Positions 35,593 to 41,500 of a stretch of DNA of 64,000 nt are shown here, in pieces (the stretch's first letter is position 1; every line of letters begins with the position of its first letter). The notes below the pieces were generated by a model. The model was given only the letters and a program-made list of their open reading frames with translations. It ran no database searches and was not told the DNA's origin. Made by a program: the position numbers and the translations under genes. The DNA is taken from assembly GCA_963924555.1 (NCBI GenBank), contig OZ004597.1, forward strand, positions 4,730,404 through 4,794,403, written 5' to 3'. Origin of the DNA: Crambe crambe. Taxonomy: Eukaryota; Porifera; Demospongiae; Poecilosclerida; Crambeidae.

Positions 35593-38500
35593 CTTTAATT
35601 TGGTGCATAAAGTATAGAAGTAACTGTCTAATTATGTAATGTAACTGTTCAGCCTGTACAAATCTGAATCCCCCCATGGATTATTGCAATACAGATATTC
35701 AATGAATGGGATGTTATTACTTACTACTAAGACTGCAAAGTTGGTTAAATGATTGCATTCACACAAAAATTCTCCAGTTTCATTATCCCATCTTGTCAGG
35801 TTACACCCTTTATTTGTCCAGTTTCCTCGAGTAGAATTTTCTATCAGAAAATAATAACAGAATTACACAAAAAGAAGTGTGCTGAAACTCACCATATTTA
35901 ATAGCATTAAAATCCCATGATACACAAACAGGCTCTGACCAATTCTGATGTGATTGAAAATGGATTTATATATTATTGCATTGTTTTTGTGTCAAAACTA
36001 ACCAATTTCTCCTGTGCTCTCATACTCTGAAGTGTGATTTTGACTGTGGTGTTTAGATTAGTAAAAGTTCTGTTAGCAATAGTGAATCCAATAACTGCAG
36101 TGTCTGCTATGACATCATAGCTTGATCTGTTCAGTTCATTAGGTGGTACAACTTGAAATAGAACTGGTGTCTTGTAAGATGTAAATACAAGTCCCTCAGC
36201 TGATCGAAATACTTCAGATGGAAGACTAATTGAAATATTCACTTCTGGTATTGTAATATTTTCATCATCTTCAAATCTTGCAGCTAAAGACTCATTGGTA
36301 GTGGTAACTGGAAAAGAGCAATCAATGCCTCACGAGGATACAATGCATTATAGATAGTAGTACAGGATCATGTAGCTATGCTATAAACAGCAAATTGTTA
36401 GGTAACAACTTACTATTCCTTTCAGGAGGAAAGAATCGTACACGATTATCATCATCAATTATTAGCCTTGAAAAATTCACCTGATGGTCACAAAGAATCG
36501 ATTAAGTATTATCCTTTAATAGTTACAGTACTTACTCTTTGAGCTTGGAGACTCAAGCTTTCTTGTAAAATAATCAATTCCTCAAAACTATCTTGTTCCA
36601 CCAAACTGGAAGCAATATTCTCAAAGGAATTCAATAAGCTACATGAAAGGAATAAATAATTCTCAAAACAGACTAGTGGAAGCTTCACTTTGAAATGAAT
36701 TCTCTTTGATAACTACAACATACTCAGATGATCTTTCCTCCACTACATCTGGAGGCCAATCTGATATGTCATCCAAAACTTGAACGGTATCTTCTGCAAT
36801 CTAAAGATGCAAATAAAATACTGTAGAGTACTGTTGTGCATATAATATCAAGAATCTGTAGTTGTCTAGTGAACAGAATGAAATGCAGAAAACTTACTTT
36901 AGGTGTGACATTGACCATGCCATTCTCCACTAGGTCATTAATGTTATCATATATGTTAACAATAAGTTCAAGATTGTCTGTGCTTTGTTCATCTTCCTGG
37001 TCCAGATTATGTACCACTTGAACAACTGAAGATATGACCTCGCCTGCTCTTTCTGCTGTTACTCTTTTCTAATATTATCATTGTTCAATTGATCATTGTA
37101 AAGCTATTGCATCTTGAGCTAATGACTTACAAAGGACAGCTGACGCAGTTCATAAGTATCAGCTGTTATACACATCATCCCATCATATAGTCCCCAAGTA
37201 CGGGGAGCATCACAATGCCGTAAGGCCTTTGTATTCTTTTGTGGTTCTTTATAAAAGCAGTCCAAACTCTGAGTTTCTTTGACTTCAACTTCAGTCCAGT
37301 TGTACTCTCCACGATTATCATATGATTTGAAGGCGATGTCATTATCACAGAATCCCTTTTCTGTATGTGATGGTAGGTGTTATAACATAGGGCCACAAGA
37401 TGATGATTACGACTTACTTGATGAATTTATCCCACGTTCATCAACTAAAATATTTCTATCAGGTAAATTCATGACAAAAGTGTCCTGAATATTGGATACG
37501 CGCTGGAAAAGTTGGTCAGTATGATTTGTAGGATGGTTACTAAAAACGCATTCAACTCTGTCCCAGTTGCTTCTCTTTTCCTTTATGCCACTGTGTGTGA
37601 GTGTGTTAACAATAAGTTTACAGCATGTTTATATTCAGGGGTTCAACTTACTCAGGAACATAAGTGCAGTTGGCAAGTTGCTGACCAGGTATATCTGTTC
37701 CAATCGAGTTTAGCAGTGCTGTACTAAATATTGCTAGCAGAATTGAACGAGATGAGATATGGTATGTCTGGGCAATATCTTGGTAAGATCTAGTGCTGAA
37801 GCGGATGAAGTTCTTAGAGGCAGGATTAACAGCCGGTCCTGAGTATTATTATTAAATGTAGCTAGCTAATTGCAGATTTATTTTAACTTTGTGACTCACT
37901 TTCTATTCCAATCTTAAGATCAAACTCTTCTTTCTCATAGTCATTGATGGCTACACATTTGTATTTTCCTTTTGAGTTCATATTAACTCCAATTGCAGCT
38001 CCAAAAATTTCTTTCTTTCGTGATCCTAAAACTACTTTAGTATTGTTGTATCTGTAGGCATACAGCTGACCAGGCTCTTCATTTTGCAACACTTCCGAAT
38101 GATGCCTTTCACTAAAAGGCAAAAGTTCCATTGAGTAGCCACCGCTCCCTGATCCAGTCATCACCATATTGGACTCTGTAAAGTTGACCTCAGGTACATC
38201 TGTAAAATCTGGGAAAGTTATAGATGGTTACTGTCAGTATAACTTCACTGTAAGGTTACTTACTTCCTGTATCTTGATCCAGCAACTTCCAAACTGCTCT
38301 TCCTGGATGAGATCCATATGACACACATTCAATTTCTACCTCTCTCCCAGCTGGTACAGTCAGAGTGTTATTAATAATCTTATTCACTCCAGTAGGTGTG
38401 CTGACATTGATTAGAGGCTTTATGGCTGTGGGACAAGTTAAATTAATGATACATTTATTGTATCATGCTATCACACATTAGCTCGTGCACTCACCTATGC

Positions 38501-41500
38501 ACTCAGTTACTCTTGAATTTGGTAGGAATCCTTCTTCGCATATAACAGGTTGTGTGTTCTGTTAAGAATACGAGAGCCAGAGATCAGTGTGGCATGAAGA
38601 AAACAAAACAACAACAACAATAACCACAAAAACAACAAAAACAAAAAAAATGAACTTACAACTAGCACACCAAATGTGCTCAGATGGTTACATCTGCACA
38701 AGATCACATCTTTTTTTCTGTCCTGTGACTTGCATCCTTTGCTACTCCAGTCTCCTCTACCATCTTCAATTCCATGAAGAGGGTAAATAAGCTTTTTGTG
38801 CAGTAAGTAACTTACCTGCAGCATCTTTATCCCAATACACACAAATAGGTGCTTGAGAAAACTGAAATAAGTATAACTTCTAGTTATGTGCAATATCTAT
38901 AGTGGACTGGTACACACCTCTGAATGCAGCTTTATGGCTATAGTAACATCTTCGCTCAAGTTCATCACTGTGTGACCAATTATGGTGGCTGATATGATTG
39001 CAGAATCCACTGTAAAGTTTTCATTGGTTTGATTAGCTTGTGGATAAAGGATAGAAGAATTCAATGCTCCAAATAGAAAACTCATCTCTGTTTCATTTGA
39101 TGTATTAAGTAGATCAGTGAATATGCTCTGTGGGAGGCTAATAGATGCAGACTGAGAGGTGGCACTTGAAGTTGGGCTGCTAATTGAAGATTGATTCATA
39201 TTGTTGGTCGATATTGTACCCTGAAATCCTAGAAATATTGACCAACTTGAAATTCAAATTTATAGTGTCAGTAAATTAGTTGCTATAGGCTAACCGGTCT
39301 GATCAGTGACCCTGTATAAGATATTTTGATCCAGTAGTTCAGAAAACTTTATCTGATAGTGGAAAAAAGTATTATGGGGTTTGATAATTAAATATTCCTT
39401 TGGCTTACTTTTAGTCCAGAGTAGGTGATATTTAAGGTACTAAAAGTTTCTGTGACATTATCTTGATTCATAGGAAGCTTAAGTTGAGATACAAATTCAG
39501 CGAATATCTCTTCAGTATTCTCTACTATCCTGGAATATAGGAAGTAAAATGGATTAAGCATGCAATCATGTAGCTAACTTACTCGGCTGATGCCAAATTC
39601 AATGTTTCTTTCTTCCAGCTCTGAATTGAATCCAATATAATCACCAAGGTTTCAACTTCCTCATAGTCCAATGAGCACTGTAAAATCAGAAATACAACTC
39701 AAATCCAAAAACCTTGCTGCAAATTGCTTACATTAGACTGTTCAACACTGCATTCAGTTAGTCTAGATAGAGTTTCAGCAATCAGTTCTATGTTAGCTTC
39801 TGATTGATCTTCACTATTATTTGCATGCAGCACAGCATCAAGTACTGCCTTTGTGATATTTGCTATTGTAGCTTGAGACACTGGAGTCTAATTATACCAT
39901 ACATGTGCTGTGAAGAGTATCCAAATGAAACAAATAGCTATCTACTTACAGATTTAACTTGTCTTAAATGGAATTCAGAATAAGTTAAACATTCGTTGAA
40001 TGAAATGTTCTCCCATCGCCCTCTGTCATTACACTGCCTAAAAGCCATTGGACTAGCATGACTTATATTAAGTCCACCATATTGACATGGTAGGCTGATA
40101 TTCAGTTCTGCTCTTGTCCTATTCCACAAATATCTGCCATGTGGTGCTTCATATACATCTTCAGGACAGAATGCTAAATAAAAGAATTAAACTACAGCTT
40201 AAGCTACTTCAGATAAAATCTCAAACTTAAGTAAAGCAGAGATGGAGGCTTACTACACTTGTACTATACCTTCACAGTGAATGGTGACATCTAAATTGTG
40301 TGAACAAGATATAGTATTAATTCCAAGAGCAGAATTGAAACTACAATCCAGCAATCTCTCTTCATCATTCCTACAATCAAGAGCACTCAAAAAGATAGGG
40401 CCAGTGCCCTTTGGTATCACTCCAATAGCAGTCTCTGTTCCAGCATCCCCCAAATAACGAGCTCCTGTAATGACCATGCATATTATCATGCGTATTGTAC
40501 ATGTACTAGTACTATACCTGTTCTTTCAAACTTCATTTGGGAGCATGCCACTGCAGCATCATCGTCACTGAACTGTGTGGAACACACAGTTCCCCATGCC
40601 TTATTAATGCAGATCTCTAATCTTCCCTCTCGAACATTAGGGCCATCCTGCAGTCTTACATCTGCTTGAGTACAGTTCTCCATTTCAGTCTCTTGATCTG
40701 AAAATTGAAATATTTGGAGAACAACCATAGCTAGTTGTATGAATATCGAAATCTATAATAGGGTATGGTTGTTCAGCGTAATGGGTTGGTAAACAAAGGA
40801 TATTCTATCCCATTCCCAGGCTTCACCAAGATGAGCCTGATCATGGAGCTGAAGTATCAGCTTTCTATAAATCTGATGCCAGAGGCATAGAAGTATAGAT
40901 CTTGTTTCCAACACACTGTCTACAAACCTTCAGGCCCTTGAGACACTGTAGCCTGAGTTTACTTGATATACCTCAACACTATCTAACCTTGACATGCCAC
41001 ATATGCATTTTGGAGTGCACCACATCCTCTGTTCATCAATCCGTCAGTTTCTGACTCGATAATAGGGCAATTTCTCAAGTGACTTTCTGTGCCAGAGCAA
41101 GTTATATTTCTCTCATAGAGTCTAAATGCTTCACTGCCATCAACATTCAGTTGAAAGAGTTGACCACCACTAATAGCTCCTAACAGATAAGATAAACAAA
41201 ATTAGAACTATGAAAGTATAGTTATTATTTAATAAATCACCTGCTCGTGAAAATCCTAGTTGATAGCATGCTACAGAAGAATCTTCTTGTGTCCATATGT
41301 TTTCACACACTGCTGTCCAGTCACCATCAATACATAATTCAATACGTCCGATAGCCAATGCATCATTGATGTAGTAAGTGGCATCTTTTGAAATGTCACC
41401 AGTGTAGTACTGATCTCCATAACCAATTGAAATCCTAGCACTATAATCTTCACAAACACCTAGAAAAATTTACATAAAACATAAAAATAGCTCAACTATA

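Follow-up and report, generated by a model that had tools for sequence, protein, structure and literature searches.

Adhesion G-protein-coupled receptors (GPCRs) usually carry a single GAIN domain with its GPS cleavage motif, although this is not strictly defining of the family. GAIN domains are thought to serve the seven-transmembrane (7TM) domain that they adjoin, and cleavage reportedly benefits from closeness to the membrane. The receptor gene described here lies on the minus strand of a 64,000-nucleotide stretch of the sponge Crambe crambe (contig OZ004597.1, positions 4,730,404 to 4,794,403; hereafter the window), which is part of contig 20 (C20) of a 143-Mb genome. Its membrane-proximal half has its best PDB sequence matches in ADGRG6 and ADGRG2, which share the same order of modules before the first transmembrane helix (TM1); the piece compared runs from a region of about 120 residues through the proximal GAIN domain (GAIN2) and the 7TM domain. 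The window receptor differs from both in adding a distal HormR-GAIN-GPS cassette, with an Ig-like part between the two. The initial annotation had proposed such a receptor with two complete cassettes, and this is borne out by an open 25-exon model, two Pfam GPS matches and recurrence of the layout in four genomic copies.

The hand-built model runs on the minus strand from position 40173 down to 33553 and stays open as far as the stop codon. It comprises 1535 codons, the first one partial, and all 24 introns (52-439 bases) are of the GT-AG type with matching phases. The encoded order is HormR1-GAIN1-GPS1 (HLS), a two-cysteine exon, an Ig-like domain, the stretch of about 120 residues, HormR2-GAIN2-GPS2 (HLT), the 7TM domain and a long tail. 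The features, all on the minus strand, are as follows.

40174..64000, minus strand: upstream array of EGF_CA and SRCR exons, from regular-expression motif counts and a crude automatic chain, taken as part of the same ectodomain
39950..40173, minus strand: HormR1 exon, phase 1-0 (Pfam HRM, below cut-off; HHalign match to HormR2)
38816..39887, minus strand: GAIN1, six exons (39732-39887, 39583-39677, 39409-39529, 39295-39352, 38918-39228 and 38816-38861, the last carrying CVYW of GPS1), with matches to ADGRG2, ADGRG6, ADGRG1 and ADGRB3 chains
38660..38763, minus strand: GPS1 exon, KGC and a 13-residue motif (Pfam GPS)
38495..38558, minus strand: two-cysteine connecting exon of 64 bases, 21 residues, phase 0-1
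37900..38425, minus strand: single Ig-like domain, exons 38264-38425 and 37900-38208 (Ig_3, below cut-off)
37418..37838, minus strand: region of about 120 residues without a domain match, exons 37652-37838 and 37418-37590
37131..37360, minus strand: HormR2 exon, phase 1-0 (HHalign matches to HormR1 and Ephydatia, no Pfam match)
35893..37068, minus strand: GAIN2, six exons (36898-37068, 36724-36800, 36536-36638, 36414-36480, 36003-36307 and 35893-35944, the last carrying CVSW of GPS2), with matches to ADGRG6, ADGRG1 and ADGRL3 chains
35725..35840, minus strand: GPS2 exon, KGC and a 13-residue motif (Pfam GPS)
33553..35592, minus strand: 7TM domain and cytoplasmic tail to the stop codon (Pfam 7tm_2), the 7TM part in exons 35471-35592, 35152-35414, 34992-35082 and the start of 33553-34552

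Both GPS exons lie where they were first placed, each ending before GTAAGT, and the GPS2 exon directly precedes the TM1 exon, as had been predicted, so that a GAIN-GPS unit abuts TM1 as in class B2 receptors. The predicted cut sites fall before residues 365 (GPS1) and 1037 (GPS2). With TM1 beginning at about residue 1060, GPS1 is some 695 residues from it and GPS2 some 23.

Both GPS motifs, of which the usual receptor has only one with its GAIN domain, score far above the Pfam cut-off (E 1.5e-15 for GPS1, 3.7e-12 for GPS2), and a class B 7TM domain is present (7tm_2, E 3.5e-33). Neither GAIN domain of the window is matched by the Pfam GAIN family (PF16489); they were assigned instead by sequence similarity to chains whose GAIN domains have been solved, the best being ADGRG2 for GAIN1 (E 8.5e-16, followed by ADGRG6, ADGRG1 and ADGRB3) and ADGRG6 for GAIN2 (E 5.3e-9, with ADGRG1 and ADGRL3 also matched). 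HormR1 falls short of the Pfam cut-off of 26.2 bits (18.1 bits, E 0.0035), and the Pfam search gave no match for HormR2. When profiles are compared, HormR1 and HormR2 resemble each other with a probability of 96.4% (E 1.2e-9), and the region from the freshwater sponge Ephydatia matches HormR1 at 78.4% and HormR2 at 92.7%; four control pairs of unlike domains gave 0.09-0.16% in HHalign. An Ig-like domain between the cassettes had also been claimed. The Ig_3 match is weak, at E 0.016-0.031 in the window and E 4.8e-5 (24.2 bits, under the cut-off of 30) in the paralog on contig C15 described below. A SEA domain ahead of HormR2 had seemed likely by eye and was dropped, HHalign with the Ephydatia region giving 1.3% and no domain match being found.

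The two-cassette layout occurs at three further places in the genome, paralogs A, B and C15. Paralog A is 98.5-99.4% identical to the window in DNA and could be a very recent copy or an assembly duplicate. In paralog B the introns are 80% identical, 21 of the 25 core exons are 93.5-100% identical and the remaining four 67-87%. When the model is lifted by alignment, all 25 exons stay open in both A and B. Indels in B are multiples of three, and one of its acceptors aligns as TC, with a usable in-frame AG present there. Both copies lie on the window's own contig (regions C20:4669845 and C20:4539106, loci L009-L012), an arrangement that may reflect recent tandem expansion or assembly duplication. 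The C15 paralog, on another contig, keeps all 25 exons and all phases, while its protein is 46% identical to that of the window over 1330 residues and the core is matched at the DNA level over only 143 bases, within one 7TM exon. That the same exons, phases and domains persist despite so short a DNA match excludes chance in practice, and the recurrence of the layout at three other places, with C15 preserving every exon and phase, points to a single gene belonging to an old subfamily.

The introns that separate GPS1 from the Ig-like part are only 101 and 69 bases long, and a break between two genes would need to fall within one of them. The connecting exon is present in all four copies, in phase on both sides. 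Between the window and C15, 14 of its 21 residues are the same; five codons are identical, nine differ synonymously and seven non-synonymously, so that 9 of the 16 changed codons are synonymous. The genome has at least 86 GPS matches with E <= 0.001, of which eight make up the four pairs; among the 7tm_2 matches listed (150 of 233 candidates scored), none falls between the members of any pair. It is therefore very likely, judging from exon structure and its conservation, that the window core is one gene.

According to PMC13062082, the HxS/T triad is insufficient for cleavage: competent GAIN domains also place a Phe, or in E3 a Tyr, opposite the histidine and have a Gly ahead of a conserved Cys; flexible flaps of the domain matter too. 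GPS1 agrees with all three residue features, having HxS/T, an aromatic residue before the Trp (position S10.49) and Gly before Cys S12.50; it reads CVYW...KGC...HLS in the window and CVFW...EGC...HLS in C15. GPS2 (CVSW...KGC...HLT in the window) has the HxS/T and the Gly but lacks the aromatic residue, with Ser at S10.49 in the window, A, B and C15. The same CVSW occurs in the Ephydatia proteins P0001 and P0002/P0003. This Ser aligns with the Phe of the solved ADGRG6, ADGRG1, ADGRL3 and ADGRF1 structures; ADGRG6 (6v55), for example, reads CVFWDFN against CVSWDFN in GPS2.

For comparison, 33 other GPS loci of the genome were sampled, namely the first 20 of the genome list and 13 from other clusters, which is not a random draw. 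The aromatic position is readable in 27 of them, with Phe in 23 (one without the Trp) and Tyr, Ser (L043), Arg and Ile in one each; the other six are unreadable there. A Ser at this position is thus unusual in this genome. HxS/T is kept in 28 of the 33 and lost in L040, L041, L046, L047 and L048, where motifs such as QLG stand in its place and the receptors are probably uncut. By these residues, the outer GAIN1 looks better suited to cutting than the membrane-adjacent GAIN2.

Neither GPS site appears to be decaying, judging by substitutions against paralog B and identity with C15, small as the numbers are. In the comparison with B, the 50 codons of the GPS1 exons contain one change that is non-synonymous and four that are synonymous (non-synonymous rate dN 0.008, synonymous rate dS 0.146), and the 56 codons of the GPS2 exons contain one of each. 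Between the window and C15, the GPS1 stretch, extended by two residues into the following exon, agrees at all 15 positions and the GPS2 motif at 12 of 13. Over the whole core, dN/dS between the window and B is 0.47, with 0.33 for HormR1 and GAIN1 but 0.93 for HormR2 and GAIN2 (31 non-synonymous against 6 synonymous changes). As far as these counts go, the latter means that the proximal cassette is weakly constrained or is changing faster; cassette 2 is nonetheless the better conserved against C15 (46% compared with 40% for cassette 1).

We propose, as a reading with about an even chance of being right, that GAIN1 acts as a breakaway joint through which a giant SRCR/EGF ectodomain can be released, and GAIN2 as the signalling GAIN. 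GAIN2 would be an ordinary signalling domain whose tethered agonist (TNFAVLV...) lies about 23 residues before TM1. Lacking the aromatic partner of the histidine base, it may cut slowly or incompletely and signal largely uncut. GAIN1 would be uncoupled from the 7TM domain, since about 695 residues separate TM1 from its agonist-like strand (STFGVLV...), which could not be presented directly to the 7TM domain. Self-cutting of GAIN1 in the secretory pathway would leave a non-covalent joint within a very long ectodomain, from which the SRCR/EGF part might detach under pull or on ligand binding, leaving an Ig-HormR2-GAIN2-7TM receptor on the cell. A review cites recent work in which GAIN joints separate at 10-20 pN, and another report of 95-160 pN at fast loading (PMC13197933). 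Placed in series, GAIN1 would cap the force reaching GAIN2, and the outer part could be torn off before, or instead of, activation, leaving a shorter receptor. If uncut, GAIN1 might serve as a spacer or force-unfolding module. The more specific proposal, in which efficient cutting at a distal GAIN1 with an undeliverable agonist, in series with a cleavage-poor GAIN2, makes shedding and activation separate events, is possible but doubtful.

Several points weigh against the breakaway-joint reading. GPS1 may cut poorly, because cleavage falls as a GAIN domain is moved away from the membrane: when a spacer was inserted, cleavage of the ADGRE2 ectodomain dropped from 45% to 10%, with the same trend in other receptors (PMC12488864). 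GPS2 may still cut, since loss of the aromatic residue in L1 (Phe to Leu or Ala) reduced cleavage (PMC13062082). A dN/dS of 0.93 across HormR2 and GAIN2 is unexpected if GAIN2 is the essential part, and the substitution counts in the GPS exons are small. The two-GPS layout was also not found in a second species by protein searches, of which one, using an alignment of two sequences, scored 7,998 candidates and returned four hits, all from organisms other than sponges, and another, using a long query, returned none among 4,004 candidates; such searches require shared short words and a fixed length range, and absence elsewhere is not implied.

The initial annotation had suggested that the receptor could be cut at both sites into three non-covalently held pieces. 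In its full form, with both GPS cut efficiently, two possible sheddings and activation of the 7TM domain by release of the GAIN2 agonist, this now seems unlikely. HxS/T, the GPS cysteines, the Trp and the Gly-Cys pair are kept at both sites, and GPS2 adjoins TM1, where cleavage is favoured (PMC12488864); the GPS2 aromatic position is however Ser in all four copies and two Ephydatia genes, a position at which replacement lowers cleavage in L1. GPS1 fits the residue pattern for cutting. Equal cutting at both sites is doubtful, because GPS2 is without the aromatic partner of its histidine base and GPS1 is far from the membrane.

It is also possible, though a rather poor prospect, that GAIN1 is too far from the membrane to be cut in life and persists as a structural module, either rigid or unfolding under force, with only GPS2 or neither site cut. 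The fall of cleavage with membrane distance is in its favour, as is the statement in the review that GAIN B subdomains partly unfold at low force even in the non-cleavable B3 (PMC13197933). The GPS1 triad and its surroundings are however fully identical between proteins that share 46% of their residues overall, and the loss of HxS/T at five of the 33 sampled loci, which indicates that such loss is tolerated elsewhere, counts against an uncut GAIN1.

Two separate genes, an SRCR/EGF-HormR-GAIN-GPS protein ending past GPS1 and an Ig-HormR-GAIN-GPS-7TM receptor, which the initial annotation had named as the outcome that would overturn it, are very improbable: the GPS1 exon could in principle read on through its intron, but the read-through varies among copies and stops at once in C15, the parts are separated by those two short introns alone, and the connecting exon is kept in phase in all four copies with mostly synonymous changes against C15. 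If retained, the intron at 38559-38659 (minus strand) would encode a hydrophobic, membrane-helix-like stretch after GPS1 in the window. This reading was set aside: C15 stops immediately, A and B read otherwise, and the stretch is probably a T-rich tract.

Duplication of the whole cassette had been suggested from the shared end of the two GPS exons. That shared end is present, and each cassette consists of eight exons with the same phases, but parts of the pattern also occur, in crude models, at the single-cassette loci L018, L021 and L026, so the shared end is not diagnostic and the argument that identical exon phases prove tandem duplication was dropped. The cassettes are about 25% identical to each other (68 of 270 positions in the window, 65 of 270 in C15), against 40% and 46% between the cassette 1 and cassette 2 counterparts of the window and C15; the pair thus predates the divergence of these two lineages. 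In a maximum-likelihood tree (27 sequences and 128 columns, comprising the 18 sampled loci with at least 90 profile columns and nine references, with 15 loci omitted), the copies of cassette 1 group in one clade (support 99) and those of cassette 2 in a second (95). Cassette 2 groups weakly with Ephydatia (51) and with the single-cassette locus L043 (60), and a split with support 78 separates cassette 1 from this wider group. The approximately unbiased (AU) test with the cassettes forced to be sisters gave p = 0.069, so that sisterhood is neither favoured nor rejected. By GAIN profiles, cassette 2 is closer to Ephydatia (E 4e-32) than cassette 1 is to either cassette 2 (E 1e-20) or Ephydatia (E 6e-22), whereas HormR profiles point the opposite way (HormR1-HormR2 E 1e-9, HormR2-Ephydatia E 4e-7). 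Candidate origins are duplication within the gene and the joining of two receptor genes, one of which lost its 7TM domain. L043 (C15:6917160-6919260) has CVSW like GPS2 and Ephydatia and is a possible relative of cassette 2.

Upstream of the core, simple regular-expression counts give 44 EGF_CA and 30 SRCR starts in 40174-64000, and beyond the window the next two 10-kb pieces hold 19 EGF and 12 SRCR, then 18 EGF and 14 SRCR. The exons of this array are in phase with the HormR1 core by eye. A crude automatic chain reached 9618 residues without a clear start, a rough figure; since the chain recovered 23 of the 25 exons built by hand, some of the others in it are certainly wrong as well. The SRCR/EGF motifs span about 44 kb on the minus strand (window 40174-64000 with L015 and L016), the 5' end not being found. 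If these exons belong to one gene, it would rank among the largest GPCRs. Beyond the 3' end of the receptor gene, an LTR-type (long terminal repeat) retroelement has a 1266-residue gag-pol-like open frame at 26538-30338 (minus strand) with zinc knuckles and integrase- and reverse-transcriptase-like stretches, judged by eye.

No published receptor with two GAIN-GPS units before one 7TM domain was found by phrase searches, among the papers listed, in the literature outside subscription papers, figures and preprints; a text search of the first 300,000 of the 412,533 characters of the review PMC13197933 gave no mention of double GAIN domains or sponges, and one of a choanoflagellate-GPCR paper (PMC12716839) gave none of double GAIN. 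The Amphimedon adhesion GPCRs Aq712029 and Aq715659 have SRCR repeats, as here, with no mention of two GPS found in the corresponding part of PMC4302439. The closest proteins found are Ephydatia muelleri P0001 and P0002/P0003, the latter apparently two models of one gene (P0002 being EukProt Em0011g442a). Their HormR-GAIN-GPS-7TM part is 35-36% identical and has the same CVSW, but they have one GPS match each, and P0001 and P0003 have an FN3, EGF or LDLa ectodomain. ADGRB2 resembles GPS2 in the Ser facing its histidine base and differs in having Asn in place of the conserved Gly, which GPS2 keeps (PMC13062082). GPS1 and GPS2 differ naturally at the aromatic residue that has lately been suggested to govern cleavage. 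With a second, conserved GAIN this distant from the membrane, cutting, shedding and agonist delivery would be separated within one natural molecule, so that the role of GPS cleavage could be tested site by site. The likeness to PIDD1 and to ADGRF5 (Ig-Hepta) is that each has two self-cut sites per protein and yields three pieces; PIDD1 differs in being cytosolic with ZU5-type sites, and Ig-Hepta in combining a SEA site with one GPS.

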